From contig OZ020260.1 in NCBI GenBank assembly GCA_963971285.1, forward strand, positions 13,426,798 through 13,490,797: a stretch of DNA of 64,000 nucleotides. Direction: 5' to 3'. The stretch is from Astropecten irregularis (Eukaryota; Echinodermata; Asteroidea; Paxillosida; Astropectinidae). The notes under the pieces were generated by a model. It made no database searches. It was not told where the DNA came from and worked only from the letters and a program-made list of their open reading frames with translations. A program made the position numbers and the translations under genes. How positions within the stretch are numbered: the stretch's first letter is position 1; the number at the start of each line of letters is the position of its first letter. This document shows positions 38,523-64,000 of this stretch, in pieces.

Positions 38523-40499
38523 TCACTTTTTACCCCAATCTGTGGCAAAGAACCAGATTTCGTTGTGTCGACCCTTGAGGATAAAAGGACTGTCGTATCC
38601 AGCGTTGTAGTAGGTTGATGTGTCGTACGGCTGGCTTGAATTTAGAGCAGCTGCAAGTGCTGCGGCCTCTTTCACAATGAGCTCATCCTTGGAGTAGCCG
38701 GGATAAACCCTGGAGAGAAACAGCAAAATTAGATAAAACGGCATACAACGACGGTGAACGGCACACGACAAGAACAAGTTTAAAGGTAATATCATACTTT
38801 GGATTTTGTCAAAGAAATGCAGATTCATGTGCAAAAGTATCAAGAAAGATACAGTAACAGTCATCTGTGAAACTCCCAGTCCCATGTGGTACCCACTTTT
38901 TGAGAAAATAGTGAAAAATGAACACGGAAAAAAGGAGGGCTTAAGAGTTGGTTTTTGAAAATTTAACAAAAGCATCAACCAAAACTCTACCAAAAAAATA
39001 CACGAGCTGTTCATCAGATATGATATCAGATATGATCAGCCTATGCTTCTCACCTCACGAAAACCTTGTGTGGACCGAGGGATGACAGAAAAAGCTCGGA
39101 ATTGGTTGGCTTGGGCGTGTTCTTTTGGAACTCGAAGGGAACAAAGAACGAAAAGGTGAAGTTTGTCGCGCAAACTGGTCCTTTACCGGGAAGGAAGCTG
39201 TTTATCACCGGAACGGTCATTGGAATCTTGACCTCTGCATTTGGAGGAAAATAAATAATCAATAAAATGACGCAATGACGATTCCACAAAGATTTTAATG
39301 GAAATTTACCATCCACTTCAGTTAACTTCAACACACCCATCATTAGATTTAGGTGCACTGTTGACCATTCCAAGCCATAGACGGGGGCCAATTTCAGAGC
39401 AGCTAAGCACCAATATTTGCTTAAGCACCCAAAACCTTGGTATATAAAATCAGTATGCCAGCCAAAACTCCTTGTGAATGTTATGCTCAGTAAACAATGG
39501 CCGAATACAAGTCAAAAGCAGTAAACATCACATGAAAATTTGGTTGGTATATCCTGTCTGATCAAGGAAGACTTTTCATGTTTAAGCAAATTTTGCGCTT
39601 TAAGCAGCTCCATGAAATTGGCCCCAGAAGACCAGAGAGCAGGCCCCAAGGAGGCAGTCATGGGTCTTTTTGGCTCAACCCACCCTGGGAGGTTGGGACA
39701 AATACTGCAATGTTTCATTCTGGAAAAATTTGAGGACAATTCTTCAGGCAAAATTCTAAGTGAGGTTATGCTGACAAATGGGACAATGGAAAATGGAAAT
39801 GAACCGAAAATTGTGAAGTTAATGGGCGATTTCACTCACTTTGATCATTTTCTCCCTGGATGTACTCAAATAACTTCATGAAAGCCAGTTCCGATGCCTC
39901 TTGAAAATTGACTCCGAGAATGGATGTGCTGACCCAGGCCGAGGGCTCATAGAGTCGGATTGAATAGTCCTAAAAAATCAACACAATGAATACAACATAA
40001 ATATCAGACTAATAATCTACGAATCTACGAATCGGACATAAACATTATGAGGTAGCCAGTATTTTTTTTCAATGCAGCTACGAAATTTTGAATTGTGAGT
40101 AATTTTGAATTGTAAAAAACTTTACAATTTAAAAGATTAATTAAGAAAAATGTACAATTAAAAAAAAATGTAAAATGTTTGAAACTTGTAAATGCTGGAA
40201 AAAGGTTACAATTTTGAAAAATTTAAAATTCTAACAAATTTAAAATCATTGAAAATTAAAAAAACAAAAAATGAAAATCTTTGTAAAAAATGTAAAAAAG
40301 AAAAAAAAAAAGATTTTTGAAATTTTGAAAAATTGAAATTGAAATTCACCTTGGATGTGTATGTTTCTTTGAATTTGGGGCATTCCAGCTCTTTGCAGAA
40401 GGTTGCCGCTTTGGCAACTCTACCTTTGATGGAGAAACAGCAGCATACACTGAGCATCGCTGCGGCAAACAGCAAGATGGAGATTCTTGCGGCTGCCAT
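38523..40499 (-). CDS. HEBP2-like: secreted single-domain SOUL heme-binding protein
   Basis: SOUL-family protein; relatives bind heme or other tetrapyrroles. Coding exons: 40350-40499, 39840-39969, 39054-39234, 38523-38709, phases 0, 1 and 2, giving 215 residues (human HEBP2 is 205). The first about 22 residues form a signal peptide with a hydrophobic core (ISILLFAAAML then Cys-rich), so the protein should be secreted or lumenal. Then CKELECPKF, YSIRLYEPSAWVST, FMKLFEYIQGEN, IPMTVPVINSFLPG, FTFSFFVP, and the C-terminal YYNAGYDSPF...RHNEIWF typical of the family. An acceptor just upstream of the ATG (ending about 40518) and a donor at 41095 indicate a spliced 5' UTR. The neighbour at 41438 is a paralogue on the other strand with the same intron phases. 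Confidence 0.94.
38780..38935. mobile_element. truncated MITE family A
   Basis: Left half only: TAAAGGTAATATCATACTTT to CCCACTTTTTGAGAAAATAG. It lies in the last intron of the secreted SOUL gene. Confidence 0.8.
39383..39625. mobile_element. MITE family B, long subfamily
   Basis: GGGGGCCAATTTCAGAGCAG left, CATGAAATTGGCCCC right. It lies in a SOUL gene intron. Confidence 0.85.
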
Positions 40500-41437: not shown

Positions 41438-44400
41438 ATGATCGGACTTCAGAAACTGGCTAGCTTCTCGTCAACATCATCACGTTTACTGAATCGGTAA
41501 GGTTCTTGTCATCGATTTTTCTTCATTTCTTATCAGTCCAATTACGAGTTTTGCAATGGTGCTAGGAAGCTGTAATGTGGCACGATTGTTCATGATCGTA
41601 GTGTTGTGCAACATGGCATGGCTGCATTTGTTTACTTATTAATCATTCGCAATGTGTACTTTCCTTCCTCCATGATTTATGAACAGCACTTGTGCTCTGT
41701 TTATGTTCACCATAGCTAGCTGTGTACACTCACCTCACCATGGTACACCAATTATATCGTGGTATTTATTTTATACTAGGGAGAATAGGTGAAAAAGACG
41801 CAGCATCCATTTATGTTGATTGGTGATGTGGGAATTGTGTACACGGAGGAATAATTCCTCATAAGTGCCCGGTTCCTGGCTATACACTTAAATGTTGCAG
41901 TTGTTCAGCCTAAAATACATCCTTCAGCCTTCGATAAAGATCCTGGGAAAGAATTCCACTGACGGCCATCTCACTATGTGCACAAACCTAGAGGGACCAA
42001 CAGAGGGCGTTTTGATAAAAATGGCTAATGCTGCATTGGAAGTGTATAATTGTAGGTCAAAAAAACCTGAAAATCTCACTTTGTAGATAAGCTACACCAG
42101 TTTTCACTCCTGAGATTGAAGTTCATCATGACTTGCATCAAATAAGTTAACTCTTGGAGGAAATAACCCTGTTTCCGTCATGGCCGTCAGTGGAATTCTT
42201 TCCGTTCCGAGCTATACACTTTAATGTTGCACTTGTTCAACCTAAAATACATCCTTCAGCCTTCGATAAAGATCCTGCTACTGCTATAGGATCGAAACAT
42301 GTTAGGCCCTCCTACCTCCAAGCATTATAAATTTCAGGTCATTATTTTGGCTGATGAGTAGTTTGCAGCAGTTAATTACTTGTACAAAGTTCTATAGTTA
42401 TACTTTGGAACCACTTGTACACAATTACCAGTGATGTGGTGTTGAAAAGTTTGTATGTATCTTCATTTAAATGACCCAAGCTTTACCAAGAACATTTTTT
42501 TCCTGTTTGGCCGGTGAACTAGCCTGCCCCATACCTTGTCTAGCCACGGAGGAAGGATGGTCTAGATGATGTTCAAAGATCCTAAAGTAAAGTGTGGTAG
42601 AACTACTATATAGTTTAAAGTGGCATCACATGGTGGTATATCCTTGCAGAAGGATATAATTCAGGCTCGACAACAATCTTTATTGGCAATTATTAATAAG
42701 CTAACTTCTAAGCTAACTAACTAAGTTGTTGTGATTGTAGAAAGCCCGAACTCAAGATGTTTGCAGCAATTAAGAGCCTTGTGGGTGATCTGGAGACCCC
42801 ACACTACACAGTGGAAAACCAGTCTAAAGACCCCAAAAAGGTGGGTATCATAATTTGGGACAGATTTTAACACTTTTATCATTACCGTTCATGTACCGTT
42901 CCCAGGTTGAAGCATTGCTGCGCGTATCATTGAAACCATCCCTGGGGTATGGCGGTGTGTGCGTGGTTTCATGGCTTCTGACTGCCAAACGAACAAAGAT
43001 AATTGACTATTTGGGTCACCACCAACGTAGGGCTGGATGGCTCAGTTGGTAGGGCGCCTGTACGGTATTTAGGAGGTCGCTGGTTCAAATCCTGCTCCAG
43101 TCAAATTTTCTTTGTTCACTTTTCAATGACTTTTATTATTATTTAAAAAACTGTGGCATTTGGTAAGAACCTATGTCATATGAAAGACTTGTTGTATAAT
43201 AAAAATTAAAAGGTACTATCATACTTTTTTGATGGTAGAAACGTACTGTTAATATTTTTTCTGCCTGAAATGCTGTATTAATCCAGAAAAGAGTAAAACC
43301 AATGACCAAAAACAATTTGATCTTTTAAAGATCAAAAATAAAATGGTGAAATGATTTTAAAAAAACTCTGGGTGTTTTTCATTGTTTTCTCAAAAAGTGG
43401 GCACCGTATGGGACTGAAAATTGCATTGTTGACTGTTACCGTATCTTCCTTGATATTTTTGCGCATGAATATGCATTTCTTTGACTAAAACCAAAGTATG
43501 ATACTACCTTTATGTTTGATTACAAAAGTTGTCAATTTTGTATAATTTTGTATATGATGTATGTATTCTCACTATTCTGCTGAGATTTTTATTAAAGCAA
43601 TTTATATGCCGATCCATCATTGGCCTTTCTTATTCCTGCTCCTACTACCAATACCCACAGCCTCCACCACCGTATGAAGTGCGGAACTATGTAGAGTCCA
43701 CCTGGGTGACCACATCGGAAATGACCATTGAAGAGCCCTCAGACAAGAACAAGAAGAGCACCAGTGTAATGTTCTTCAAACTCTTTGACTACATCTCAGG
43801 CAAGAACGTTAAAGGTGAGTGCATTATTGCTGTACGGGCCTAGACCAGGTCTCAAGAGGGTACGTATCAACACTCTTCGCAATGACTGATGCTACCTTGA
43901 GATGCCACTGGCATGCGAGTCGAAGAACAGTCTGCAGTTTGAAGATGGACTTCCATGACCACCACCCTCTTTAAACCCTCCAGTTCCCCTCTTTCCAATG
44001 GCTGGCATTTGAGGGGACCTTTTTAGTCTAACGCTTTCATCAGCGGTTGTAGAAGACGAGTAGAAGACTCACACACGCTCAGAGTTGGACTAGGCTCCCA
44101 TGCTCAGAGGCAGTTAGAGGCTCAGAGCTCATACAAGTACCCATCTTCAACTATCATTCTGCCCCTAAAATTTTCACTTTCCAGCATGAATTATTTGATT
44201 CTCCCTGTTTTGTAGAACTTCATGTAACTCCATTTTATTTGTAAAGGTTTTAAAGCTAGAATTTTATTGGGTTTTTTTTGTGTTCTGGCAGATTTGCTCT
44301 GAATTTAAAGCAAAAATAAGCTCAGCAATAATTTGAGATTACTTGCAAAGATTTGTGCTTAACATTAATTGTACACTATAGGTACAAAGCTATATAAGGA

Positions 44401-45340
44401 GACTCTGATGAAACTTCATCATGTTGCGAGTGTACCACTCTGGAAGTTTAAAAGTCACCCATTTTAGGCCTTCATCATTCAGTGTTTAGTAAAAACCTTA
44501 AAACCTACCTCGATTTTCTTCTGCAGAACAAAAAATTGAAATGACCGTTCCGGTGCTGAAGAAGATAACCCCTGGAGCCGGGCCCTTCTGTAAAACGGAA
44601 AAGGACATGTCATTCTACGTCACCAAAGAATTTCAAGGGTCACCCCCTGAACCATCAGCGGAAGATGTCTACGTGACACAACTTCCAGCTCATCGGGTTG
44701 TTGTCAAGTGAGTTGAAGACATTAATTGCTGAAAGGAAAAAAAGAGAATGGAATTTGGAGTGTGATAGGAAGAGATACTCTCTGAGTATTTTAATTAAGG
44801 CTAGTTCTATTGTCTTGGTATCTCAACGTTTTTCCTGTGTAGCGAAGACCTAGACCTAGCTCTAGATAACAGATGCAGCCTCAGTTTGTTACCATTTTCT
44901 CAAAATGGCACAATGAGCTCAACCTATCCAATTTGAAACATTAGGTCAGAGTGCAAGTACTGTTCTGTGACTATTTTGGTAGGTGATGTAAATTATGTAA
45001 ACTTGTAATCTTTTGTACCACTATATCAGTCTGAATGATTGTTAAAACCTTTCTCTTTGGTTTTGGTGGGGTGGATAGGACTTTTGGCGGTTACTCATCG
45101 GATGCAAAAGACATTGAAGAAGCATCTGCACTGGCTGACCTCGTGAAGGACAAGTACGAATTGGAGCAGAACTTCTTCTACACAGCCAGCTACAACAGTC
45201 CTTGGCGTGTAGTCGGGCGCCGCAACGAGGTCTGGTTCGTCATCAAGGGCGAGAAGGAGAACGGAACGACGAGTAGTTCACCCACAGAGACTGTCGCACC
45301 TACAGGGGGATCATCTGTTGATGAGGCTTCAACCGAATAG
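41438..45340 (+). CDS. HEBP2-like: single-domain SOUL heme-binding protein, intracellular or mitochondrial form
   Basis: SOUL-family heme/tetrapyrrole-binding protein. Exons: 41438-41496, 42741-42840, 43661-43814, 44527-44707, 45079-45340, phases 2, 0, 1 and 2, giving 251 residues. There is no signal peptide. The N-terminus MIGLQKLASFSSTSSRLLNR is basic and Ser-rich, which could be a mitochondrial presequence. A second Met (MFAAIKSL, exon 2) could give a shorter cytosolic form. The core is PPPPYEVRNYVESTWVTT, VMFFKLFDYISGKN, IEMTVPVLKKITPGAGP, MSFYVTKEFQG, FGGYS, FFYTASYNSPWRVVGRRNEVWF, followed by a 25-residue Ser/Thr/Glu-rich tail. The last three introns match those of the divergent gene at 38523-40499 in place and phase. 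Confidence 0.94.
41872..42277. mobile_element. 258-bp TIR element flanked by 74-bp direct repeats
   Basis: Element 41946-42203 has perfect 24-bp inverted ends (GGAAAGAATTCCACTGACGG then CCAT). The 74 bases on its left (41872-41945) recur, slightly changed, on its right (42204-42277). It lies in intron 1 of the plus SOUL gene. Confidence 0.85.
42890..43135 (+). mobile_element. near-complete tRNA-containing SINE
   Basis: Head (CCGTTCCCAGGTTGAAGCAT, TGGTTTCATGGCTTCTGACT), A box GGCTCAGTTGGTAGGG, B box GGTTCAAATCC, and a tail to CACTTTTCAATGACTT. Closest to the 15100 copy. Confidence 0.88.
43208..43513. mobile_element. MITE family A with an internal deletion
   Basis: AAAGGTACTATCATACTTTT at the left runs straight into GATGGTAGAAACGTAC; the right end AAAGTATGATACTACCTTTA is intact. 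Confidence 0.85.
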
Positions 45341-48420: not shown

Positions 48421-51400
48421 TTAGACATTGTAAGACAAAGTTTCTGTCAGTGCGCCGACCTCAATCTGACGCTCGCCTCTCTCGTTGGGAAGAGTGTACA
48501 TGGCCACAAATACCTCACCCTGTATGTAACAAAAAGAGAACAATATATCAAATGGAGGTATATTACAACCTTTTATTAGTCCACCCACTATCTACATAAT
48601 ATTCGAAGGTAATTGCCTATGTGCCCTTAGTCATTGCCTTGGTGCACCTAGTCATTGCCTTGGTGCACCTGGTCATTGGATTGGTGCACCTAGTCATTGC
48701 CTTGATGCCCCTGGGCATTGCCTTGGTGCCCCTAGCCATAGTCATGGTGCCCCTAGTCATTGCCTTGGTGCCACTGGTCATTGCCTTGGTGCCCCTGGTC
48801 ATTGCCTTGGTGCCCAGGCCTGGTCATTGTCTTGGTGCCCCAAGTCATTGCCTTGGTGCCCCTGGGCATTGGTGCCCCTGATCATTGTCTTGGTGCCCCT
48901 AGTCATTGCCTTGGTGCCCCTGGGCATTGGTGCCCCTAGTAATTGCCTTGGTGCCACTGGTCATGTGTCATGGCGCACCTGGTTATTGCCTCGGTATAGT
49001 CGTTGCCTTGATACACAAGGCTTGGACTTCAAAATGGAGGCATCTGCATGGGTACCTCTAGTCAATACACTGGTAATATGTCTACTGTCACAACTTGCAA
49101 TTCAGGAAAGCAAAAAGAATCCATCTAAAGAATACATTGGAAACACTGGAGTAACACCTCGAGGGTGGTGTAGGCCTACGTAATGACAAGGTGAATAGGC
49201 TACTCACGGAGTGGAAGAGGTCTGCTTCTACAAGGCCTTGCATCAGAATGGACATACTGGTCTCCACGTTGACTGATGTAGGTTCACCTTCCAAGCTGGC
49301 CACGTACGCCACGCGCCACAGGTTGGTCTCCAGGGTCAGCTGAAATTGAACAAACGACAAGAAAGGCTAATGAAGGTGTGATGTTTGCTCATGGTATAAG
49401 TTCAAAATACTTCCTGTTTCTGAACGAACAAACTTGTATACAGCTAAACATATCATCCTGGAAACTTAACCTCAAAATGAGACCCAATGCCACTGCTTTT
49501 ATGAGCGACTAATATAGAGATTTCGCCATACTATCAGATTTTCTGACCATTATCATCACATTGTAAGCTCAGGCCGTGACTGAAACGGGCTTCCAGAGCT
49601 ACGGCTAGGTCTATTGCCTTGGTGTCCCCGCGTATTTCTAATGGAGTGAAGACCTAGACCTAGCTCTAGTCAACAAAATCGGATGCAGCCTCAATACCGG
49701 CTGTTCCAATAGTGCGCCTCCAAGAGTTTGCAATGCTTTGACCAATCACAATGCACGGAATCTGTCGACCATTTCCAAAAGCGAAATGGTCGACAGAGCA
49801 TTAATTGTGATTGGCCAATACGTTGCAAACGTTGGGGCGCACTATTCAGAATCACCCTATCTATCCAATAATGAAGATTTAAAGCAACAAAAACTGTAGT
49901 CTTATCGTATACATCCTAGGATAAGAGTAAGATAATACATACACCGTTGGTTGGTTTGATAAAAGGCACAGTTTCCAGCCCCGGTAGGTACATGCAGGTT
50001 TGGATCGTCTTACTGCATCCTGTACTGAAGAAGTCCGCTAGGCTTAGCTGCATGCAGGATTGGGGAAAAAAACAAATTGCACAAGTTATTCATTCTGTGC
50101 AATCTGAATCGTTAGAAACTGTAAAGAGGCCTGCATGGCCTTTTCGAAACATCAGCTTGAGCCACGGTGGTGGTACAGAATTATTATTAGACACCTGCCC
50201 ACTGTTTGAGAATCACTAGCAAAATATCTAATAGGCCGTGTCCCAAATCTTTGGCCGCAGCTGCAAAAAAAAAACACAAGTCTGTGGAAACGGTTGCAGT
50301 CACTGGCTCGTGGCTACCACTGTTTAATTTGCAGCCGCAGCCAGATATTTGGGACACGACCTTACTACTTTGGGTAATCAGGAACTGACACGGGAGCGCC
50401 TGGGTCCGTGACGAAGTTCCAAGCCACAACCGGTATACGGCTCGGCCATTTCGTACGGGCTTCCATTGTAGTACATGTAATTGGTATCAAAATTATTGGC
50501 TTTTGGCTACGATTTAACTGGGAAGGTAGATAATCTATTCTGTTCAAGAAAATGGAGCTTCAGCTTCAAAGAAAATAAAAAATAAGAATTAAAACCTATG
50601 TTTTGATGCCTTAGGTTCCATGGTAACGATTGCATGTTAATTTATTGAACATGGACTTACGAAGGACGTGACTGGTCTGGACTTGGGCTGGTATTTGTCT
50701 TGGTACAAGTCCCGGTAGTATTCCTGCAGGGGATCGATAGCCTCAGTGAAAGCACTCTCAACGTCGCAACTCAAAGTCTCCTTGCAAACCCACACACCTG
50801 TAAAGCAATCAATTAAATTAACATCAACTTGCAGCCTTAAAACATTTTCACAATATTGAGAGACTGGCCTATTCAGATCCTCCTTTTGGCTCAGGCTTAG
50901 GCTCTGGCTCCGGCTTTGGTACATATATTGAAACTACAAATAGGAAAACAAAGGCCATATACTCTAGCTGTATCGATCAAAAAGGTGAGTCCACATCCGT
51001 ATTTTCAGGAGGGGGGGGGGGGGGGGGTGGGATTCTCATATCTGCCATATAATATGCCCTAATGGTGAAAAGCCTGGCCCATTGTTTTTTTTAGATAGGC
51101 CTACTACTCTTGCAGTTTTCATTCCAAAACTGAGTAAGTTTCAACAAATGGGTTTTCACTTTCACACGGTGCAGCTTATTTCAGTAATGCGATGATGGGT
51201 CGATTTCACCAAAACTCATCGTATCAACCGGTAGGGCTTATGATGCATTACAGCTCTACATGGCATAGGCGCCATACGATGGGTTATCAACGTAACTCGA
51301 GTTACGATCGATCGTAGGGCTTCGTAAAATCGACCCGATGTCTTATAGTTTAAGATTCCTGTAAAAAGCAACATGGTTAACTATCGAGTTTATACTTACT

Positions 51401-54400
51401 TTGGCCGTACATTCTCTCACTGAAACTCCCATAAGAGTGCACGGTCTCATAGGTAGCACAGACGGTATTGCCGCCACACCCATTGACTTGTACGTAATAC
51501 TGGACATTCGCATCTTGGCTGTCAAATTAAAACAGAATCATTTTACATGGCAATTGTCACCGAGGAGAAGATAGTACAATTTTACATGGCAATTGTCACC
51601 GAGGAGAAGATAGTACATAAGTGAGATAACGTATAGCAGATTAATACTAGAAATATAAAATACCTTGGTATGATAGAGTACACAAGAGATACATTCTAGC
51701 ATTATTGTGTATCATGAAATATCTCATAATAGGGCTGGATAGATTTTGGTAAGAGCGCCGGTATACGGTATTCCGGAGGTCTATGGGTCGAATCCAGCTC
51801 GAGTCAATTTTTCTTTGTTCACTTTTAAATGACTTAAAATTCAGTCAGTTTCCCTTTTGGTTATTTGATGAGGAAATATCTTGGTTACATAATATACCTA
51901 AAATACTTTAAGACTTATTGGGCAGGAATAGAATGATATGAAATAACTTGCAAGGATAAACCTTTGATTGATATTATAGGCATGAATAACCTTGGTAAAA
52001 AAGTCATGAAATACCAATTTAATATTGACATGAAATACCTCCAAACAGATTGGTATAATAGTCATGAAATACCTTGCTATTATAATAGAGACTATAATAT
52101 ACCTTCCATTGATATCTTGGTTTTATAATGAAAAGTCGTGCAATACCTAGGAGTGACGCAGTCTGTCTGGGCAATCCAGATCTCACGGCGATGTGGGCGT
52201 GGCCTCCAGGGGGAGTCATACGCTGTTGATACAGAATAAAAATGGGCGGGTGCGTGGGTTAAAACAATTCCGACGAGTTAGTTGCAGTTCTAACAGTCCA
52301 TTTTGTATTATACATGTATATCTCGCTTGAAAAGAGTCCGTATGAGTTGATATACAACAGTAATAACGTATACAGATTCGTATTCCTGAAAAGGTTGGAC
52401 TCGAATTTCAGTAATTTCGATGAAAAGGAGACCTTGCACTGCAATTATGGTTGAGAGAAAATATTCGGACGGAACAATATTTCATTCGCTTGGAGTATAG
52501 GTGGGACTGACGTTTCGATCCTAGCAGGATCTTTCTCAAACGCTAAATACTTCAACTTTTGTTTAAGGCCGAGATGAATGTTCGATGCTTAGTCAAACAA
52601 TACCGACTTTCTTGAAAGTTGTGAAAAAAAGTTTGACAAATAACATTTCGTGACGTTTTCAAAAATGAACTTGTGCTTTATCCAACCTACATGCGATCCC
52701 GTATTCCTTATTGTTGTAACATAACCCAAGCGTGTCCAGAACGGACCGGAGACGGGTCACTTGTGCCTCAACCACGGCCTCGGTTACCGACTCCTCGAAG
52801 GTCAAGAAGAATCCGTTACTCTCCCCAATCCACTTCAGCTCAACGTTCTCCTGAGATGGAGGGTGAAAAAACCGAACGAAAGGTCAACAATGTGACCAAA
52901 GACGACACAAAGAGCCTGGAATCAGCCTTCTGATAATTAAATTCGAAAGGCCTCTCGTTGAATGCAAAAAAAATGAACCCCTAGTGTATTCATTTGCTTG
53001 TAAAATCATGTAATCGAAAATCAACTAGGCCTATATGCAAAAGACAATTGTAAAGTGAGTTAGTTCCTGATGAAAATGATACTGCCTGAGTGTGAGGACC
53101 TAAACATTGCTATTAATTATTTTCGCATCATGGTGGTATAACATCTGCACTAATAAGCAGGAAGTCGTGGGTTCGAATCCCACCTGAGCAAGTGCATGAT
53201 TTCTTTCATGTGCACTAAAAAGCACTGAGTGTGCAGTCATTTCAGTGCCGTTATATTTAGGGTTAGGGTGGTATGACATCTGCACTATAGTAAGCACGAG
53301 GTCGTGGGTTCGAATCCCACCTGAGCTAGCGCATGATCATGTCCTCAAAAGCAGTGCCGATATACATCAGTGCATGAAGGAGAAGCCAAACTTTGCATAT
53401 GATTTATAATGCGTGAAGACCTAATTAAATTTCCCAACCCCAGCATCACAAAATAATACCAACGATGACCAAAGACTTGATAACAAGGTATATCGTACGT
53501 CGGTTGGACTGGGTGCATCAAGGTGTCGCTCGGACGGCATGTAGAACATCAAGACGTAGGTGAAGTTACATCCAGCGGGTGGGTTGGCAGTGGACTTGTG
53601 GAAGAGAAGCACGGGTGGTACGCGCTGGATTGTCATGTTCTGAACGTTGGCACCTAATGGTAGGAAATAAGTGAATCATCACAGTCATCAATAGGGGCCA
53701 ATTTCATAGAGCATCAACATTTGCTTAAAGGTAATATCATACTTTGGTTTTTGTCAAAGAAATGCAGATTCATGGGCAAAAATATCAAGGAAGATACAGT
53801 AACAGTCATCTGTGAAAATGTCAGTCCCATACGGTGCCCACTTTTTGAGAAAACCGCGAAAAGCTATAACTAACACCACCCGACTCTTTCTCCTACCTCT
53901 GAAGTAGTTGTGTAGCGGCATGTATGCCTCGTCATAGGCATCGTCCATGACACAGGTCTCGGTTCTGCGGACGGCGTACAAACCACCGGCAACATGGCGC
54001 CTTTCCACGTCACTCGTCAGGGTTTCCAGTACACGGTAACTCGGGCATTCTTTGCCTGCATGCATAAAATCGACAAAGATTCGGTTACACAATCCATGCT
54101 AAGTGGTCTGTAGGCCTAAACTCGGCGACTGCTGTCAACTGGGCCCAGTTTTATGAAGTTGCTTAGCACAAATAATCGCCAAGAATGACATTTCTGCCTT
54201 AATAAAAATAGGATTAATTCAACCCAATTTCCATGTGTTGTGTATCACTTGCAATTGTTCTTTGGCTGTTGTTCGCTGACCATGAAAATCAAGTCGAATT
54301 TTCAATGCTGGTTTGTTACTTTTATTGGGCAAGCCATTTTTGTGCTTAGCAATTTTTTTGTGCTAAGCAATTCTATGAAATTAGCCCCATGTTGAAGTCC

Positions 54401-57400
54401 TCACAAGGATAATGCATGACGTAACCGGTCAAGGTCACAGAACGTTAACTCGAACTTTGTCTGACAAAATACGGCAGTGTCCCAATATTCACCTGCAAAT
54501 TATGCATGTACCTATATGGCAGTGACTATGGCAGTGACTGCAGCCATTTCCATAGACATGTGTGTTACTGCCGGTCGCAGCCACTAATTGGGACACGACC
54601 TATGTCCTTAAAATGCTGCTCTTGCATGGTTTTAAGTTCGACTTATATTTCTCTCATAAATTGTAGATATTTCAGACAAACAATAACAGCATTTCAAACA
54701 GAAATATCCTGGTTTCAAAGTCGGTTTCAATCTTTGGACATGTTTTACCGTAAATAATTATGTAAACATTTTGTTCTTTATTTTTTCTTAGATCTATTTT
54801 AGTATATTGTGAAGATGAGTATAGAGTTGAATCAAGAAAGAATAAAATAGTCTGTACCTCTGTGTTGACAGGGCGGGAACCCTGACTTCGTTTCGCAGAC
54901 TGCGTGCTTGGCAAGGGGATCCATCTTCACGATGACGTCATTACGACGGTCGCTGTACTGAGTAGGGCTGAAATAAGAGACATTTGGATTGGTTCAGATA
55001 CATACAACAGTCGTGTGCATAGTTTCATGCGAAAATGCCATTTGGTATCAGATGGCGTCGTTGGCGGTTGATCTTTGAAATACTGACATCGAAGGTGAAT
55101 AAAGAAAACCTGTGCTCTACCAACTGAGCTATATCCAATGTTCAATGTTGGCGAAGTCGCAAATTGTCAATTATCTTTGTTCAAAGCAACTACTCCAAAC
55201 TGCTCATCAACCAAAATATTGCCTTGAAATATGCTTATTCTTTCCCTGTTTCCCTGGCCACTCTGTCCCCCTTTGTTCCGATCCTCTCATCCATTTGTGT
55301 GTATCTTTACTTGCACATTCTTGTCGTCCTGCCATTCAGCCTTCGACAAAGATCCTGCTAGGATCGAAACGTCAGGCCTTCCTACCTCCAAGTATCTTTG
55401 TTCGTTTGAAATATTGAGGTTGGCATGATCATTGAATTCGAATCCCAACATGATTATCAAGCCTATAGCAGTTGTGACAAGGCGCTTAAAAGCTCCACTG
55501 TCATCTTTCAGACGAACAGAGCCATACTCACAGGTAATACATATTGGTGGCCCAATGCTCAGAACTCATGAACTGTTCCCCAGCCTCGACCAAGAGATTC
55601 TCCAAGGAGTTCAGGTTCTGCTTGTCCAGGAAGTCGTAGGTATAACCGGTGAAGTTCAGAGCGAACCGGACGCCTGCTGGCTCATTCGTTATGTACACCT
55701 GTTAAAGGAAAATCCAATATCATCAACTGATTTTTCGCCTAAAATTTCAAATCGTACCAAAAGGTTGATGAAGAGTTGCATACTTAACAGCTTTCTCCAA
55801 AAAACTACATGTATAACAATTAACACTCACTCTAGATTAGAATAATAAGTATTTTTGGTTACTGGCAAAAAAGATTCAATTACTTACATCAGAGTCGAGT
55901 GGTTGTGGGATGTTATTGTACAGAGTCTCAGGAAGGTAATAGGAGAACGTGTACGGCGTGGAGTAGACAGGATCATAGACCGATTTGGGCCATGGTTGAG
56001 AGATGCGAATTGGCGTCGTCTTTGGTATTATAATGCCTGCAGAAAATATAGAACAAGTCTGCTGCCACCAAGTGTCTCGAATGTGCCACGTGGTATGGCC
56101 AGGGGATTTTACGAAATGACTAAGGCTCCGGCTCTGTCATCCATATGCTGAAAATATAGATTGTGGTGTTTCATTGAAGCTGAAGCTCTGTTTTCCTTTT
56201 CAAACCAGAGAATCTACTTCCGAAGTACAGCCAAAAGCCTCTATATAGTTTGATACTCGTTATTTTAGAATGGATTCATGAAATGGTGTCAGAGCCAGAC
56301 TGAGCCTGAGCCTTAACTCCTAAGTTACGGCCATATTATTTTTCCTTTCTCATTGAAAAGTCTGCATTTAGGCCTATATAATGAATTTGCATAAATTCCT
56401 TTTATTGATTGGTGGATGACGTTGATTACATGACTTAAAACATTCAAATCGTACCAGGGAGCCGCACGCGCATCGAAGGCTTATTCATAGAACCAGTGAA
56501 TTGCACTGAGCCAATGAGATGAAGGGGAACTAGTCAGACGTCGAATCTTGTAATGAATTATTCATGTTTGTGCAAAGGTGTATATTCGCCGATACTAGAC
56601 GGATGGGTGGAACCGTTCCGTTTCACCTGGTTACGTCTCGTGAAATGGTACGTTGACTACGTTCCGCCTCTTGAAATTGCACTAAAATATTCATAATTTT
56701 GTATGATTTTGTATTGTTCAATCTCGTGTACCATGTTAAATCAAATAAAATGCCCAAAACATGTGGTTTTTCAGTTTAAAAACGGTTCACCATCCGTCGC
56801 ACGTACCCTGATCGTTGAGTCTATTGAAGTACTTGTCCAGCTTTTGGTAAGCAACCAGACCTGCGACGTCCGACGTCACAGAGCTGACCTTAGTGGACAC
56901 CCACACGGCCTTGCTGTACAGCCTGGCGTCGTAGCCGCTGCTGGACTTGCAGAGTTGCTTGTAGTCGGGTCCGGAGGTCGTGACCACCGGGGCATCGGCG
57001 TGCTGGGCCGGGTCCCATCTGCTGATACTCGACGCAGCCGGTTCCACCGATCCCTTACCGCTGCAGACGGGCAGCTCGATGTTGGGGTTGAACATCAGCA
57101 TGACCTCGTTGCGACGAGCGGTGACGTGCTGGGGCCTGGATTGACGTGGGAACACAAGACGATATTTCAGGCGAGAGGAATAGAGAGAGAAAGGGGAATA
57201 AATCAGACTCCCCGTCAACTCAGAGTCGAGTCATTTGACCCGAGTCCGCCGAGTCATGAAAACTACTAACTCGAGTCAGACTGGAATCTGAGCTCCAGTC
57301 ACGGTGTCATAAAACTTTGGAGGAGATGGACGGTTTTCAGCGGGTCACTCTGTTAGAAAACCTCTAACAATCTTAAAACCCTCTGTCCTTTCTTACGGGT

Positions 57401-58564
57401 ATACCGTACATAACAACAAAATACGGAGGAAGAAGTTGGAAGATAAGGCCTATTGCTCTGCCCGATTGTAGGCTGTTTTGATCGTTAAAAACGGACGAAA
57501 TTCTGAAAAGTGGAGTTAACAAGGAAATGAAATAAATGAATTATCATTTTGCTGCCTAATTGGTCCAAAATTATATCAATGATTAGTATTTTAATAGATA
57601 CTGTTTATTTTTCGCCCAAACGCCACTTGGATGATCTCTGAACTAAAGATCTACATGGCCTACTTACGGGTCGTAGACATTGACGAAATAGTATCCCCGC
57701 GAGAAACGCTCCTTGTGGGTATTGAGAAGGTCCTCTAACTGGCCCAGTTTCTGGAAGTTCATGAAGTCGAAGGTGTAACTGTCGAAGACGATGGCAAAGT
57801 ACTTGCTTGGTGGCTCGTCTGAGAAATACAGCTGCGGTACAGAGAGAGGGAAATACCCATTGATATCTGATAATCACACGCTAGGATTGCCAAATATCAT
57901 AACCTGCTATATTTCACCGACTCAAAAATCGAAAGAGTTAGATCTAAGCCTAAAGTACCAAACTTTGATGCAAAACCCGGACTCTGTGACCATGTGATGG
58001 TCTTCAAACAGCCCCGGGACATTAGGCCTATATCATTTGCTGTTCAAAGGCGTGTCACTGACAATGTATATACGAAAAAATATAGTAATTGTCCACTGTA
58101 GTCTCGTGGTGATGACTAGAGCAGACTAGTCTAAACGTTGAGACCTTACGAGAAGTGCGAACGATTCTTACATGGTGTTTCCACAAATCGATCCACATTA
58201 TTGTCACCATGCAAAGCCTCAAATCTTTCTTGTCCACTGTTTTACTGGTCATTGCGAGCCAAGTTTGAATGCTTTACAAATTGCCAAGTGTGAAATATTA
58301 AAAACGTCTGGAAACAAGTGACCAAAGTTATGGGAAGACTTGAATAACTAAATAGGCCTACAAGTTGGCAGCACACAGCTAGGTGTGACCGATCGAGATA
58401 CTTGGTACTTACGTCTGTGTCGTCGGGTGAGGGTAGATCGCCGTATAACTCTGGAGGCAGGTACATGGAGTAGATAAGCGTCTTCACTTGGTATCCAGGA
58501 CCCCACTGACCGGTGGGCACGGGGCTCATCAGACGGAGTGGCTTGGTCATACTGATTGTGAGAT
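48421..58564 (-). CDS. multi-domain SOUL protein, at least four tandem SOUL-like domains, 5' end not found
   Basis: Exons on the minus strand: 58413-58564, 57668-57831, 56807-57135, 55888-56036, 55532-55698, 54858-54967, 53897-54055, 53499-53653, 52691-52850, 52147-52222, 51400-51518, 50661-50797, 49943-50047, 49208-49339, 48421-48519 (stop TAA). They total 2213 nt, about 737 residues, with phases that all join. Domain A lacks its start and runs from TISMTKPLRLMSP to ARRNEVMLMF. Domain B has YDARLYSKAVWVST, YTFSYYLPETLYNN, FTGYTYDF and DRRNDVIVKMD. Domain C has CPSYRVLETLT, MTIQRVPPVLLF, FTYVLMFYMPSER and SYDSPWRPRPHRREIWI. Domain D is the most diverged: VCATYETVHSYGSF, VWVCKETL, IQTCMYLPG and a short end. 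The first visible exon starts in phase 1, so coding exons exist upstream, beyond the satellite block or outside the window. Function is inferred from the family only. Confidence 0.88.
48610..49010 (-). repeat. 21-bp minisatellite, same unit as in RABL6 intron 3
   Basis: About 18 copies of CCTAGTCATTGCCTTGGTGC on the plus strand, the reverse complement of the RABL6 unit. It lies in the last intron of the multi-domain SOUL gene; relative to the host transcript the unit has the same orientation as in RABL6. Confidence 0.92.
49700..49855. mobile_element. palindromic MITE, family F, copy 2
   Basis: CAATAGTGCGCCTCCAAGAG and GGGGCGCACTATT are inverted, with AAATGGTCGACAGA in the middle. Confidence 0.8.
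50233..50364. mobile_element. MITE family G, copy 2
   Basis: GGCCGTGTCCCAAATCTTTG and AGATATTTGGGACACGACC inverted; GGCCGCAGCTGC faces GCAGCCGCAGCC. Confidence 0.85.
50470..50640. mobile_element. MITE family H, partial
   Basis: ATTGGCTTTTGGCTACGAT, TCTGTTCAAGAAAATGGAGC and AGCTTCAGCTTCAA follow the order of the whole copy at 26286. Confidence 0.55.
51006..51030. repeat. poly-G run
   Basis: About 20 consecutive G with one T near the end, in an intron of the multi-domain SOUL gene. Confidence 0.9.
51197..51337. mobile_element. MITE family C, copy 4
   Basis: GGGTCGATTTCACCAAAACT and GGCTTCGTAAAATCGACCC inverted. Confidence 0.85.
51541..51618. repeat. 39-bp exact tandem duplication
   Basis: TTTTACATGGCAATTGTCAC to GATAGTACAA occurs twice in a row with no difference until the end, 22 bp upstream of the exon at 51400-51518. 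Confidence 0.9.
51728..51870 (+). mobile_element. tRNA-derived SINE, 5' truncated
   Basis: TAGGGCTGGATAGATTTTGG, GGGTCGAATCCAGC and the tail CAGTTTCCCTTTTGG. The A box is damaged. Confidence 0.8.
53120..53345 (+). mobile_element. two copies of the second tRNA-like SINE family
   Basis: GGTGGTATAACATCTGCACT with GTCGTGGGTTCGAATCCC at 53120-53200 is repeated at 53268-53340. Both are followed by GCATGAT. Same family as 23240-23335. Confidence 0.75.
53694..53872. mobile_element. MITE family A fragment inside a family B fragment
   Basis: GGGGCCAATTTCATAGAGCA (start of B) breaks at about 53727 into AAAGGTAATATCATACTTTG (start of A), which itself ends at the AAAACCGCG point near 53855. Confidence 0.75.
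54141..54388. mobile_element. MITE family B, short subfamily
   Basis: GGGCCCAGTTTTATGAAGTT left, CTATGAAATTAGCCCC right. Confidence 0.85.
54477..54600. mobile_element. MITE family G, copy 3
   Basis: GTGTCCCAATATTCACCTGC and CAGCCACTAATTGGGACAC inverted. Confidence 0.8.
55090..55185 (-). mobile_element. SINE fragment
   Basis: CTCTACCAACTGAGCTAT (minus-strand A box) and GTCAATTATCTTTGTTC (head). The B box is missing. Confidence 0.6.
55195..55405. repeat. repeat ending in GATCCTGCTAGGATCGAAACGTC
   Basis: The most complete copy of the repeat seen at 23470, 42230 and 52485. It runs from CTCCAAACTGCTCATCAACC to the hairpin GATCCTGCTAGGATC with GAAACGTC. It probably derives from a retroelement end; class uncertain. 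Confidence 0.6.
56128..56335. mobile_element. MITE family H, inverted partial copy
   Basis: GGCTCCGGCTCTGTCATCCA, GCTGAAGCTCTGTTTTCCTT and GAATCTACTTCCGAAG are the reverse complement of parts of 26286-26503. Confidence 0.7.
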
Positions 58565-58624
58565 CTAAAGAAAAACAATTAAAAAACATGAAAACAATGA
58601 TTAAGAACAACAAGACCATGCAAT

Positions 58625-58696
58625 AACAACAATAACTGCATCAGTAGCACTGCAGCGGCAGTAGCACTGGCAGCAGCAGCAACGACAGCAGCGGCA

Positions 58697-58728
<32 letters not shown>

Positions 58729-58945
58729 AGCAGCAGCAACATCAGCAACATCAACCGCAACAACAGCAACAGCAGCAGCAACAGCAGCAACATCAACCAC
58801 AACAACAGCAGCAGCAAAAACAACAACAGCAACAGCAGTAACAACTTCAACAGCAACAACAGCAACCGCATCAGCAGCAGCATTAAAAACAGCATCAGTT
58901 ACCGCAGCAGCCAACAGAAACTGCGACAGCAACAGCAGCAAGAAC
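58625..58945. repeat. CAG/CAA trinucleotide repeat, about 310 bp
   Basis: Imperfect (CAGCAGCAA)n with blocks of (CAA)n on the plus strand, about 60 bp upstream of the first visible exon of the multi-domain SOUL gene, so in its intron or 5' flank. Long Ala/Val or Leu frames across it are by-products. Confidence 0.95.
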
Positions 58946-59099
58946 AACTAGAGATTGTGTCTGTTGAAAACAGAACACAAGGCTTTTCCGTTTTATGATA
59001 TTAAAATAAATTGTCAAAACCTTTAACCCATAAAGACATTTGAATAAGATATTTAATTAAGCCTACTTTTAATATTCTTCGTCATGTTTGTGTCACAAA

Positions 59100-59760
59100 G
59101 AAAGACCTTGCCTAACATTGACTTTTGACCTTTTGACCGGAAGAGGTCACAGAGATCAAGCAATGTAACACAAATGAAAGACCTTGCCTAACATTGACTT
59201 TTGGTGAAAGAATCATGATCATAGCTCTTACCACTTTTAATTGAGGAGCTACTTCCTGTTTGACCGGAAGTAGAGGTCACAGAGGTCAAGCAATGTGTCA
59301 CAAATGGAAGACCTTGCCTAACATTGTCTATTGGTGAAAGAATAATGATGATAGCTCTTACAACTTTTAAATGAGGAGCTACTTCCTGTTTGACCGGAAG
59401 TAGAGGTCACAGAGGTCAAGCAATGTAACACAAATGAAAGACCTTGCCTAACATTGTCTATTGGTGAAAGAATCATGAGGAGAGCTCTTACCACTTTTAA
59501 ATGAGAAGCTACTTCCTGTTTGACCGGAAGTAGAGGTCACAGAGGTCAAGCAATGTGTCACAATTGAAAGACCTTGCCTAACATTGTCTATTGGTGAAAG
59601 AATAATGATCATAGCTCTTACCACTTTTAAATGAGGAGCTACTTCCTGTTTGACAGGAAGTAGAGGTCACAGAGGTCAAGTTATGTGTCACAAAGGAAGA
59701 CCCTGCCTAACAATCACTTTTGGTGAAAGAATCAACTTAATATCTCAAACCGTTGATTTT
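59100..59760. repeat. 130-bp tandem repeat block 1
   Basis: ACTTCCTGTTTGACCGGAAG recurs at 59251, 59381 and 59511, with a variant at 59641, exactly 130 bp apart. Confidence 0.95.
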
Positions 59761-60169
59761 TTGTTGATTTTTAAAGATTTTGATTTTTAAATTCAAATTG
59801 CTTGTCACGTGACACCTGATGATGTCACAATCACGAAAAGTTTCGGCAAACAACTACCCTATAGGGACTTCCTTCTGACCAAGTTTGGTAAAAATCGGAA
59901 GTTTTAAAGTGACCAAAGTGCCGCCGACAAAAAGTCTATGGTAACTCAAACGACAAGAAGAAGAAGAAGAAGAAGAAAAACTAGAGATTGTGTCTGTTGA
60001 TAACAGAACACATGGCTTTTCCGCATATAATACATAAAATATTTCTCAAATGATCACTTATTTTAAAAGTATCCATATTTCAATGTAGAAAACTGAAGTT
60101 AAACACATTTAGTTGCAGGGTTTATTGAACACATTACTTGTCAATTAGTGTTGTCACAAAGAATAACCT

Positions 60170-60905
60170 AGCTTGCTTAACATTCACTTTTGGTGAAAGT
60201 AAGACCGTAAGTAGAGGTCATAAGTCAAGCAATGTGTCAAAATTTAAAGACCTTGCCTAACATTGTCCATTGGTGAAAGAATCATGATCATAGCTCTTAC
60301 CACTTTTAAATGAGGAGCTACTTCCTGTTTGACCGGAAGTAGAGGTCACAGAGGTCAAGCAATGTGTCACAATTGAAAGACCTCGCCTATCATTGACTAT
60401 TGGTGAAAGAATCATGATCATAGCTCTTACCACTTTTAAACGAGGAGCTACTTCCTGTTTGACCGGAAGTAGAGGTCACAGAGGTCAAGCAATGTGTCGC
60501 AAATGAAAGACCCTGCCTAACATTGTCTATTGGTGAAAGAATCATGATCATAGCTCTTACCACTTTTAAATGAAAAGCCACTTCCTGTTTGACCGGAAGT
60601 AGAGGTCACAGAGGTCAAGCAATGTAACGCAAATGAAAGACCTTGCCTAACATTGTCTATTGGTGAAAGAATCATGAGGGGAGCTCTTACCACTTTTAAA
60701 TGAGAAGCTACTTCCTGTTTGACCGGAAGTAGAGGTCACAGAGGTCAAGCAATGTGTCACAATTGAAAGACCTTGCCTATCATTGTCTATTGGTGAAAGA
60801 ATCATGATCATAGCTCTTAACACTTTTAAATGAGGTGCTACTTCCTGTTTGACCGGAAGTAGAGGTCACAGAGGTCAAGTGATGTGTCACGAAGGAAGAC
60901 CCTAA
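60170..60905. repeat. 130-bp tandem repeat block 2
   Basis: The same monomer at 60320, 60450, 60580, 60710 and 60840, again spaced by 130 bp. Confidence 0.95.
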
Positions 60906-61440
60906 CTAACAATCACTTTTAGTGAAAGAATCAACTTAATATCTCGAACCGTTGATTTGTTGTTGATTTTTAAAGATTTTGATTTTTAAATTCAAATTGC
61001 TTGTCACGTGACACCTGATGACGTCACAATCACAAAAAGTTTCGGCAAACAACTACCCTATAGGGACTTCCTTCTGACCAAGTTTGGTAAAAATTGGAAG
61101 TTTTAAAGTGACCAAAGTGCCGCCGACAAAAAGTCTATGGTAACTCAAACGACAAGAAGAAGAAGAAGAAGAAAAAACTAGAGATTGTGTCTGTTGAAAA
61201 CAGAACACATGGCTTTTCCGCATGATACATAAAACATTTGTCAAATTAATGCACATCCATTATTTTGTTTGATTAAGACATATGGTTTAAAGGTATACAT
61301 ATTTCAATGTAGAAAATTTAAGTTTGACCCATTTGTTGCAGGGTTTATGGAACACATTGACATTTAGAATTGTGTCACAAAGAATAACCATGCCTAACAT
61401 TGTCTTTTGGTGAAAGAATCATGATCACTTTTGTTGAAAA

Positions 61441-61885
61441 CATTACGTCAACTCACAAACATTGCGTCAACTCGCAAACATTACGTCAACTCGCAAACAT
61501 TACGTCAACTTGCAAACATTGCGTCAACTCGCGAACATTACGTCAACTCGCAAACATCACGTCAACTCGCAAACATTACGTCAACTTGCAAACATTGCGT
61601 CAACTCGCAAACATTACGTCAACTCGCAAACATTACATCAACTCGCAAACATTACGTCAACTTGCAAACATTACGTCAACTCGCAAACATTACATCAACT
61701 CGCAAACATTGCATCAACTCGCACACATTGCGTCAACTCTTAAACATTACGTAAACTGGCAAACTTTACGTCAACTCGCAAACATTACGTCAACTGGCAA
61801 ACATTACATCAACTAGCAAACATTACGTCAACTGGCAAACATTACGTCAACTCGCAAACATTACGTCAACTCGCAAACATTTTGT
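61441..61885. repeat. 19-bp tandem repeat, unit CATTACGTCAACTCGCAAA
   Basis: About 23 copies, little diverged. No frame of the unit contains a stop on the plus strand, so all three frames stay open. Confidence 0.95.
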
Positions 61886-62234
61886 GAAAAATTCTGAAAA
61901 GTCAACACTCAACAGACATACGAACATGTAAGTTTTACATACTGTAAACAAACATACTGTTTTACACATGTTTTGGGAAATTGAGTCAATCGATCGAGCA
62001 TCACATCGTATGTTTTACTATGATCATTATTTTCATGTCAATCGGGTAGCGTGGGAAAGATTGAAAAATTTATAAAAGATTAAGTGATGAAGTTGTCATG
62101 ACTTCATTATTAATCGCCAACTTCTATTTCCAAAACCTACCAATTTTCGAGGCGATCGGCCGTTCCTTCTATGTGTTATTAAAATTGTTTGAAAATGATA
62201 TAAAAAAATGAGGAAAAATATAGTTTTGAGTCAA

Positions 62235-62455
62235 CGGTCAATCGGACATCACGTCCCGGCCCAAAGCCCAGTGCGCAAGCCACGCCATCGGGCCGCCGGC
62301 GGCTCAGCAGCGGCGCCCATCCACCGACCGTAGTCTGCTGGTGCATGGTGGTTGCCACTATGAAACGGCCGTGTAAATACCACCGCGTGTACGAACAATG
62401 GTCGTCCAGCCGAGGTCGGGCCGATGGGGGACCGACGCTGACTGTATTTTGCCAA
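62235..62455. repeat. GC-rich island inside the array
   Basis: About 220 bp rich in CGGCCC and GGGCCG motifs (GAGGTCGGGCCGATGGGG) in otherwise AT-rich DNA. It resembles GGGCCGA-rich transposon cores seen in other animals, but no ends are visible. Confidence 0.5.
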
Positions 62456-63259
62456 TAAATAGGCCTACTGAATAGAATATTTATACAAAATTATATCAAG
62501 AACATGAAATCACTCTGATGACACGTAAGTCTGGGGAAATGGCGTGATATAATTCAATTTGTTCATGTGTAAAACTGATCATTATTGCCACGTACAAAAA
62601 AACAAATTATGGATCATTGCACTTTTCCATACAACTCTTACCAAGTATTACGTTTTACATGTATAGCTAATATTAATGCGAATCATAAAATGACGTACAA
62701 TACGGCAACCTACATCGATAGCATTTCGATATTTGGTGCTGGTATTTAACGATATATAAAAAGTCTTATATGAAAATGTCTATGGAAATTAGATTATAAA
62801 CGAAGTTTTGATCGAGTCACGCAATCCGCGGACATTATTATGAATGCCATACACACAGTGCAGTGAAATACGTACGAACAGTGCAGTGTACATGTATGGG
62901 GAGAGTTGAGTCATTCGAGCATCATATGTTTTGTACACGACCATATTGTCACGTAATCTGTGTACAAAGTTAACGGGCTGTGAGAAATATTAAAAAATTC
63001 ATATAAAATCAAGATATGACGTCATGATGACGAAAAGTTTCGGGGAACAACTACCCTATACGGACTTCATTCAGACCAAGTTTGGTTAAGATCGGCTGTT
63101 TCAAAGTGACCAAAGTGCCGCGGACAAAAATCTGTGTACAAAGTCTATGGGCCGCAGAACAAACTCCAAAAAAATACTAGAGTTTATGGCTGTTGAAAAC
63201 AGCACATATGGCTTTTCCGCATATGATATAGAATATTTCTCTAATTAAATACACATCGC

Positions 63260-64000
63260 TGATGTTGTTTGATTCAGCAAATAAATGATATCGTCTTCGG
63301 GAAATGATTTCTCGTTTTAATCAAAAGAGGGCGTTATTCAAAACCGTGCGCTCGGAAAATACGGGTGCAGCCAAGTAAATACATGTAGTGGCCAAATGGG
63401 TCCGCCGAGCTCATGAATAAAAGTTAAGCACTCAATATATTTGAAATAAGAGAGTTGTAAGAGCTATGAAAATGAAGGATTTAAGTAATACGGCACTGGA
63501 CCTCCTGCCCGGTCTCTGGGCTTCCATTTGTGACCATTTTTGATGCAATTGGGTGAGAAAGTGGGTCTATTTCAGCCGCTTTGCAGAGGGATGTTTTTTT
63601 TTAATGGCTTCTTTGACTGGAGTGATCCGTACCTTGTTTTAGGGGTGGTCAGCTGAGAATGAGTTTAACTCAAAAATTCAACGGTCTCCCTACCATAAAA
63701 TGAAAAGAAAATGAAAGGTTACATGTTCATCATCACTTTTCTGTGCAACTTGAACAGCTGTGAGAGTTCTGTATATTTTTTAACGATTTTTGAAGTTTGG
63801 GGATTTATCACTGTTGTCCACGGGAGTTTATTTACTTGGGTGCAACCTTACGTACTGAAAACGGTATAAGTAGATTGCTGCGCGTGCGTGGTTGTCTGGT
63901 CAAAACACGGCTCAAAATCAGCATTTACGCTGCTTTGCTGGCAACTATGGTAAGGAAGTAAATAAAAAAACGGCATATATAATCCAGGCAATCAAACATC
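63260..64000. other. right edge, no feature recognised
   Basis: No frame with family similarity, no clear repeat except the partial array unit to its left. Upstream exons of the multi-domain SOUL gene would be expected here or further right but none was recognised. Confidence 0.5.

Follow-up and report, generated by a model that had tools for sequence, protein, structure and literature searches.

A 64,000-nucleotide stretch of the Astropecten irregularis genome (contig OZ020260.1, positions 13,426,798 to 13,490,797; hereafter the window) carries on its minus strand what is very probably one gene with four SOUL domains (D1 to D4), a statement that covers the domains, their order, and the exon structure. 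The 3′ part of this gene occupies window positions 58564-48421, and its 5′ exons lie 1.5-4.5 kb past the window edge on the same contig. Taken as a whole, the locus can tentatively be read as the complete gene for a secreted four-SOUL protein that would hold tetrapyrrole-like ligands extracellularly; the ligand and the role of the chain, considered by themselves, are doubtful assignments.

All fifteen phase-consistent exons proposed in an earlier reading of this DNA (the original prediction) are present with GT-AG borders. AG acceptors occur at 15 of 15 exons, GT donors at all 14 internal exon ends, and the phases match from one exon to the next. When joined, these exons constitute a single frame of 736 amino acids followed by TAA; the frame is as predicted, and the count of some 737 residues given for it had included the stop codon. 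Analysis of this protein with Pfam revealed SOUL (PF04832) as the only family matched, in four stretches (E 8.5e-75). The scores of the separate domains, which had been named beforehand as the test that could refute the prediction, all lie above the curated cut-off of 27 bits, at 83.6 for D2, 95.3 for D3, 38.4 for D4, and, for D1, 89.0 at full length or 53.5 as the fragment contained in the window. Exon 7 (numbered as in the full-length model below) encodes the last strand of D1 together with the first half of D2, and thus D1 and D2 are not separate genes; this exon alone yields a Pfam SOUL match in a six-frame search (E 5.6e-4). The four Pfam stretches and the linking exon are in agreement with the earlier claim of one gene with tandem SOUL domains.

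The original prediction also stated that the 5′ end of the gene was missing, and exons 1-4 indeed lie beyond the window. A search of the 736-residue protein against its own genome gave one weak match (E 0.007), located 1.5 kb past the window edge. Using window-extended coordinates, in which 64000 is added to the position in the next 10 kb of the contig, exon 4 (65753-65536, minus strand) contains the initial half of D1. It connects in phase with exon 5 over intron 4, a repeat-filled intron of 6,971 bp on the same strand that covers 58565-64000 of the window and continues to 65535 beyond it. Upstream on the minus strand are exon 3 (66258-66191) and exon 2 (67125-66961), the latter encoding an N-terminal signal peptide, MYRVVLILLLCGLLAQA, that was recognised by eye without a predictor. 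An ATG exon, the likely exon 1, is placed at 68483-68481 (minus strand), directly 5′ of a GTAAGA donor and with a TATAAAAAA (TATA) box ~113 bp upstream; it is the least certain part of the gene model. The full model comprises 19 coding exons and a coding sequence of 2,667 bp, corresponding to 888 residues and a stop codon, and contains no stop or frame break within. The resulting chain consists of the signal peptide, a pre-domain of ~70 residues, and four SOUL domains in tandem, with five sequons and, outside the signal peptide, 18 cysteines. Pfam detects exactly four SOUL stretches in it (E 1.2e-85), so that the "at least four" domains originally proposed become four. The further domains that had been considered possible do not appear, as the 5′ exons complete D1 and a six-frame reading and profile search of the next 10 kb upstream found no fifth SOUL domain. 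The part of intron 4 within the window contains a CAG/CAA-type array (58671-58882), a 130-bp minisatellite of 13.6 copies (59142-60933), and a 19-bp array of 23.4 copies (61438-61881).

The exons were also evaluated individually, using a control profile composed of seven SOUL sequences (four sea star single genes, HEBP1, HEBP2, and one bacterial sequence) from which the four domains of the chain were excluded. This profile was searched against 2,527 six-frame stop-to-stop open reading frames of at least 20 amino acids from the window and the next 10 kb, and the best match to a reversed-sequence control, with E 0.6, served as the threshold. Ten of the 16 SOUL-bearing exons (exons 4-19) beat the control, eight with E values of at most 0.008 and two marginally (0.41 and 0.51), and these ten follow the order of the profile in one domain after another. 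The remaining eight matches above the control are exons from the two SOUL genes next to this one, both of which contributed to the profile.

Within the window, where all exons are on the minus strand and are also defined by splice borders and frame, D1 continues through exon 5 (58413-58564, entry phase 1 and exit phase 0, GT-AG borders; profile E 3.2e-3) and exon 6 (57668-57831; E 1.3e-3) into exon 7 (56807-57135; E 2.1e-5), which carries the end of D1, a linker, and the beginning of D2. The remainder of D2 is encoded by exon 8 (55888-56036; E 8e-3), exon 9 (55532-55698; a marginal E of 0.51), and exon 10 (54858-54967; E 2.3, below the control), the last of which includes another linker. D3 extends from exon 11, which holds its first half (53897-54055; E 1.6e-4), through exon 12 (53499-53653; E 8e-5) and exon 13 (52691-52850; a marginal E of 0.41) to its end in exon 14 (52147-52222; E 9.2e-4). 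D4 starts in exon 15 (51400-51518; E 7.6) and continues in exon 16 (50661-50797; E 9.7), both below the control, followed by exons 17 (49943-50047), 18 (49208-49339), and 19 (48421-48519), for which no profile match occurs among the 45 matches listed; exon 19, defined by its acceptor, frame, and stop, carries the end of D4 and the TAA codon. An extra exon considered at ~50506-50378 was dropped, as it breaks the frame while exons 16 and 17 connect without it in phase 0. Downstream of exon 15 lies an acceptor-like site (window 50933-50869, minus strand) that opens PKPEPEPKPEPKGGSE and then a stop codon, in a phase matching exon 15; this frame might be an alternative last exon, or it could be due to chance.

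Secretion of the chain is implied by the signal peptide, the five sequons, and the 18 cysteines. Our preferred reading of the cysteine-rich chain is that it would bind tetrapyrroles or related ligands in a multivalent manner, and it is possible that several hemes are bound per chain, as had been suggested initially; for the structural or storage protein suggested at the same time, there is no direct support beyond the signal peptide. By the mechanism we propose, a SOUL exon set would have been duplicated within the local SOUL gene cluster, giving rise to a four-domain gene whose product would most likely act outside the cell, perhaps stabilised by disulphides. In each of the better preserved domains D1, D2, and D3, the SOUL pocket might be occupied by a ligand that is flat and hydrophobic, for example heme, protoporphyrin, or a bile pigment, and D4, in which the ancestral pocket chemistry has probably been lost, might serve in packing, in another contact, or in a structural task. 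A single chain could then buffer or scavenge several ligands, in nutritional immunity or pigment transport. The most specific version of this proposal, a sea star extracellular tetrapyrrole carrier with 2-4 hemes or porphyrins per chain that are moved or withheld in coelomic fluid, gut, or body surface, is one that we regard as unlikely.

Porphyrins have been described from sea star skin in old literature, although no such title or abstract opening turned up in our search. The transcript of sea urchin soul1 falls under IL17 receptor block in larvae responding to Vibrio, and review authors offer iron limitation as a suggestion for it, according to passages in two publications (PMC5457136; PMC5660111). 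Although SOUL domains occur widely, their functions in mammals are described as not well understood (PMC5660111). A secreted chain of the kind predicted here would link SOUL proteins with the handling of heme outside cells or with echinoderm gut immunity, and the uneven preservation of its domains would offer a natural experiment on which residues of the pocket are relevant to binding.

Several observations weigh against a chain of four tandem ligand-holding domains. When taken alone, exon 10, at the end of D2, and five of the five D4 exons fail the exon-level control, and the assignment of D4 therefore rests on the Pfam score of the assembled domain. The D1-D4 similarity falls short of significance (E 8.6). 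In a domain tree computed from an alignment with 11 rows and 194 columns, none of the eight inner branches is well supported; D1-D4 fall together on one side of a weak branch (41/81; 44% of 200 bootstrap trees), and D3 and D4 form long branches. The alignment column of mouse SOUL His42 is occupied by histidine only in D3, with Ser in D1, Leu in D2, and Met in D4. The same column holds His in human HEBP2, which we take, from the human numbering, to be the equivalent of mouse His42; it holds Ala in HEBP1, and no His is found there in the four other sea star SOULs. Because HEBP1 has Ala at this position, the histidine is not family-defining, and its loss from the predicted domains does not exclude binding, just as its retention is no proof of binding. 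The motifs of the ligand site decay from D1 to D4, the MTxPV block reading MTKPL, KTTPI, RVPPV, and KSRPV and the RRNE block RRNE, RRND, HRRE, and RQIE in that order. Of the four domains, D1 most resembles the family and D4, which is strongly diverged, resembles it least. Heme binding by human SOUL has reportedly been disputed. Mouse SOUL is described as binding heme through His42 and as forming a hexamer upon binding in a passage of one paper (PMC6321638), and a similar statement occurs in a portion of another (PMC7006542).

The divergence of D4, with its 38.4 bits and none of five exons passing alone, would also be expected if the locus made no single four-domain product, either because the transcript ends or splits at the D2/D3 or D3/D4 junction or because D4 is a decayed remnant. 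The acceptor-like site before 50933 could contribute to such an outcome by replacing exon 16 with a proline-rich tail that terminates at a stop codon at 50871-50869. We nevertheless consider this explanation improbable. The frame and phases argue against a split at either junction, as the 19 exons proceed without a stop or frame break and exon 7 is common to D1 and D2. Moreover, the GC content of the exons is 54% versus 39% for the introns, and the introns at the D2/D3 and D3/D4 junctions are short (802 and 628 bp, respectively). A single signal-peptide exon and a single promoter-like start were identified by eye, and no second start with a signal peptide was noticed in the frames read by eye, which did not amount to a systematic scan.

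SOUL domains belong to the bacterial effector-binding superfamily, whose members accommodate varied hydrophobic ligands. The chain might thus be a secreted binder of another small ligand (a carotenoid, steroid, xenobiotic, or odorant) that uses the SOUL pocket differently. Ligand-site motifs unlike those of HEBP1 and HEBP2 are consistent with this proposal, as is the annotation of an HBP2 as "Probable bacterial effector-binding domain" in a portion of one paper (PMC6626399), but those animal relatives that are known from PDB structures carry the name of heme-binding proteins, and we judge it unlikely. Alternatively, the same secreted four-domain protein might employ SOUL only as a stable fold, with a structural, adhesive, mucus, or matrix function and no tetrapyrrole ligand. 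The retention of His42 in one of four domains and the decay of the pocket motifs are compatible with such a role, and there are precedents: an HBP2-like single-SOUL protein with a signal peptide is reported from the shell proteome of the mussel Perna viridis in part of one study (PMC6641155), and up-regulation of HBP2 in the pedal disc of the sea anemone Exaiptasia is mentioned in part of another (PMC6626399). Conversely, a word search of the main text of a paper on the sea star adhesive footprint (PMC9382459) found heme, haem, and SOUL to be absent from it, the SOUL scores of D1-D3 lie between 83.6 and 95.3 bits, and the chain is not of low complexity. This structural explanation is somewhat unlikely, but it is not a weak one.

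The architecture that we favour, a secreted chain of four SOUL domains, is, as predicted from the gene model, an unusual variant within the known SOUL family. The best PDB match of the chain is HEBP2, or SOUL (3r8j, 4ayz, 4b0y, 5gqq), a member of the same family that aligns with D2 (E 4.8e-15; 28.7% identity). However, HEBP2 has one domain, whereas the chain has four and a signal peptide, and the equivalent of His42 is missing from D1, D2, and D4 of the chain. HEBP1, or p22HBP (7oon, 2hva, 2gov, 4a1m), is of the same family as well and matches D3 (E 5.1e-9); it also has one domain and is described as cytosolic in a passage of PMC6321638, in contrast to the four domains and signal peptide of the chain. 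With 888 residues and four domains versus a single domain of ~200 residues, and with a signal peptide seen by eye, the chain falls outside the HEBP1/HEBP2 type. Sea urchin soul1 appears in part of PMC5660111 as another echinoderm SOUL-domain gene, likened here by description rather than by sequence. Our searches of the open-access PMC literature listed no multi-SOUL animal protein, although orthologues may be annotated elsewhere.

Two single-domain SOUL genes reside 3-10 kb from the four-domain gene and in opposite orientations, forming with it a local cluster of ~30 kb. SOULa (38523-40499, minus strand; Pfam 164.7 bits) has coding exons at 40499-40350, 39969-39840, 39234-39054, and 38709-38523, encodes a single SOUL domain with a signal peptide recognised by eye, and has HEBP2 as its nearest PDB relative. 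SOULb (42757-45340, plus strand; Pfam 151.5 bits) has coding exons at 42757-42840, 43661-43814, 44527-44707, and 45079-45340 and encodes a single SOUL domain with no signal peptide seen. Two further single-domain SOUL genes are present elsewhere in the assembly, one on contig C30, with a signal peptide by eye, and one on contig C27, nearest to HEBP1. SOULa and the C30 gene thus share with the chain both a signal peptide and SOUL, but they have one domain each.

A phase-0 intron is common to D1-D4 and is missing from SOULa and SOULb, which points to an origin of the tandem by duplication inside the four-domain gene. SOULa, which is without this phase-0 intron, shares a phase-1 intron with D1 and D2 at the same alignment column, and its phase-2 intron sits at another column. 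The two best-scoring genomic SOUL matches, on contig C72, were set aside, being near-identical single-exon proteins beside an integrase-like frame (by eye); they probably represent bacterial contamination.

Elsewhere in the window, exons of an aspartate--tRNA ligase of the bacterial/mitochondrial type span ~15064-3030 on the minus strand, with NCBIfam matches at 14678-15064 (E 7.5e-9), 6688-7029 (E 9.4e-9), and 3030-3344 (E 2.7e-4) and Pfam matches to tRNA-synt_2 and GAD. A match to the histone 3′ untranslated region stem-loop occurs at 3522-3568 on the plus strand (36.9 bits versus a gathering threshold of 34). Seven tRNA-family matches, one within a SOULb intron (43031-43103) and the others at 2123, 2266, 7689, 13108, 15242, and 23253, are probably in part tRNA-derived repeats, although this is a guess. 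In the wider assembly, the 16,335-bp mitochondrial contig yields a COX1 of echinoderm type when translated with table 9, whereas table 5 gives Lys and Met where Asn and Ile are expected. Frames recognised as ND1 and ND2 are on the opposite strand from COX1, an inversion characteristic of asteroids, so that code and gene order both fit a sea star. Contig C131 contains a COX1 gene without TGA codons, and both C72 and C131 are probably bacterial. On the large contig C25, a piece of COX1 that includes seven TGA codons (9951047-9952018, plus strand) is probably mitochondrial DNA that was copied into the nucleus.

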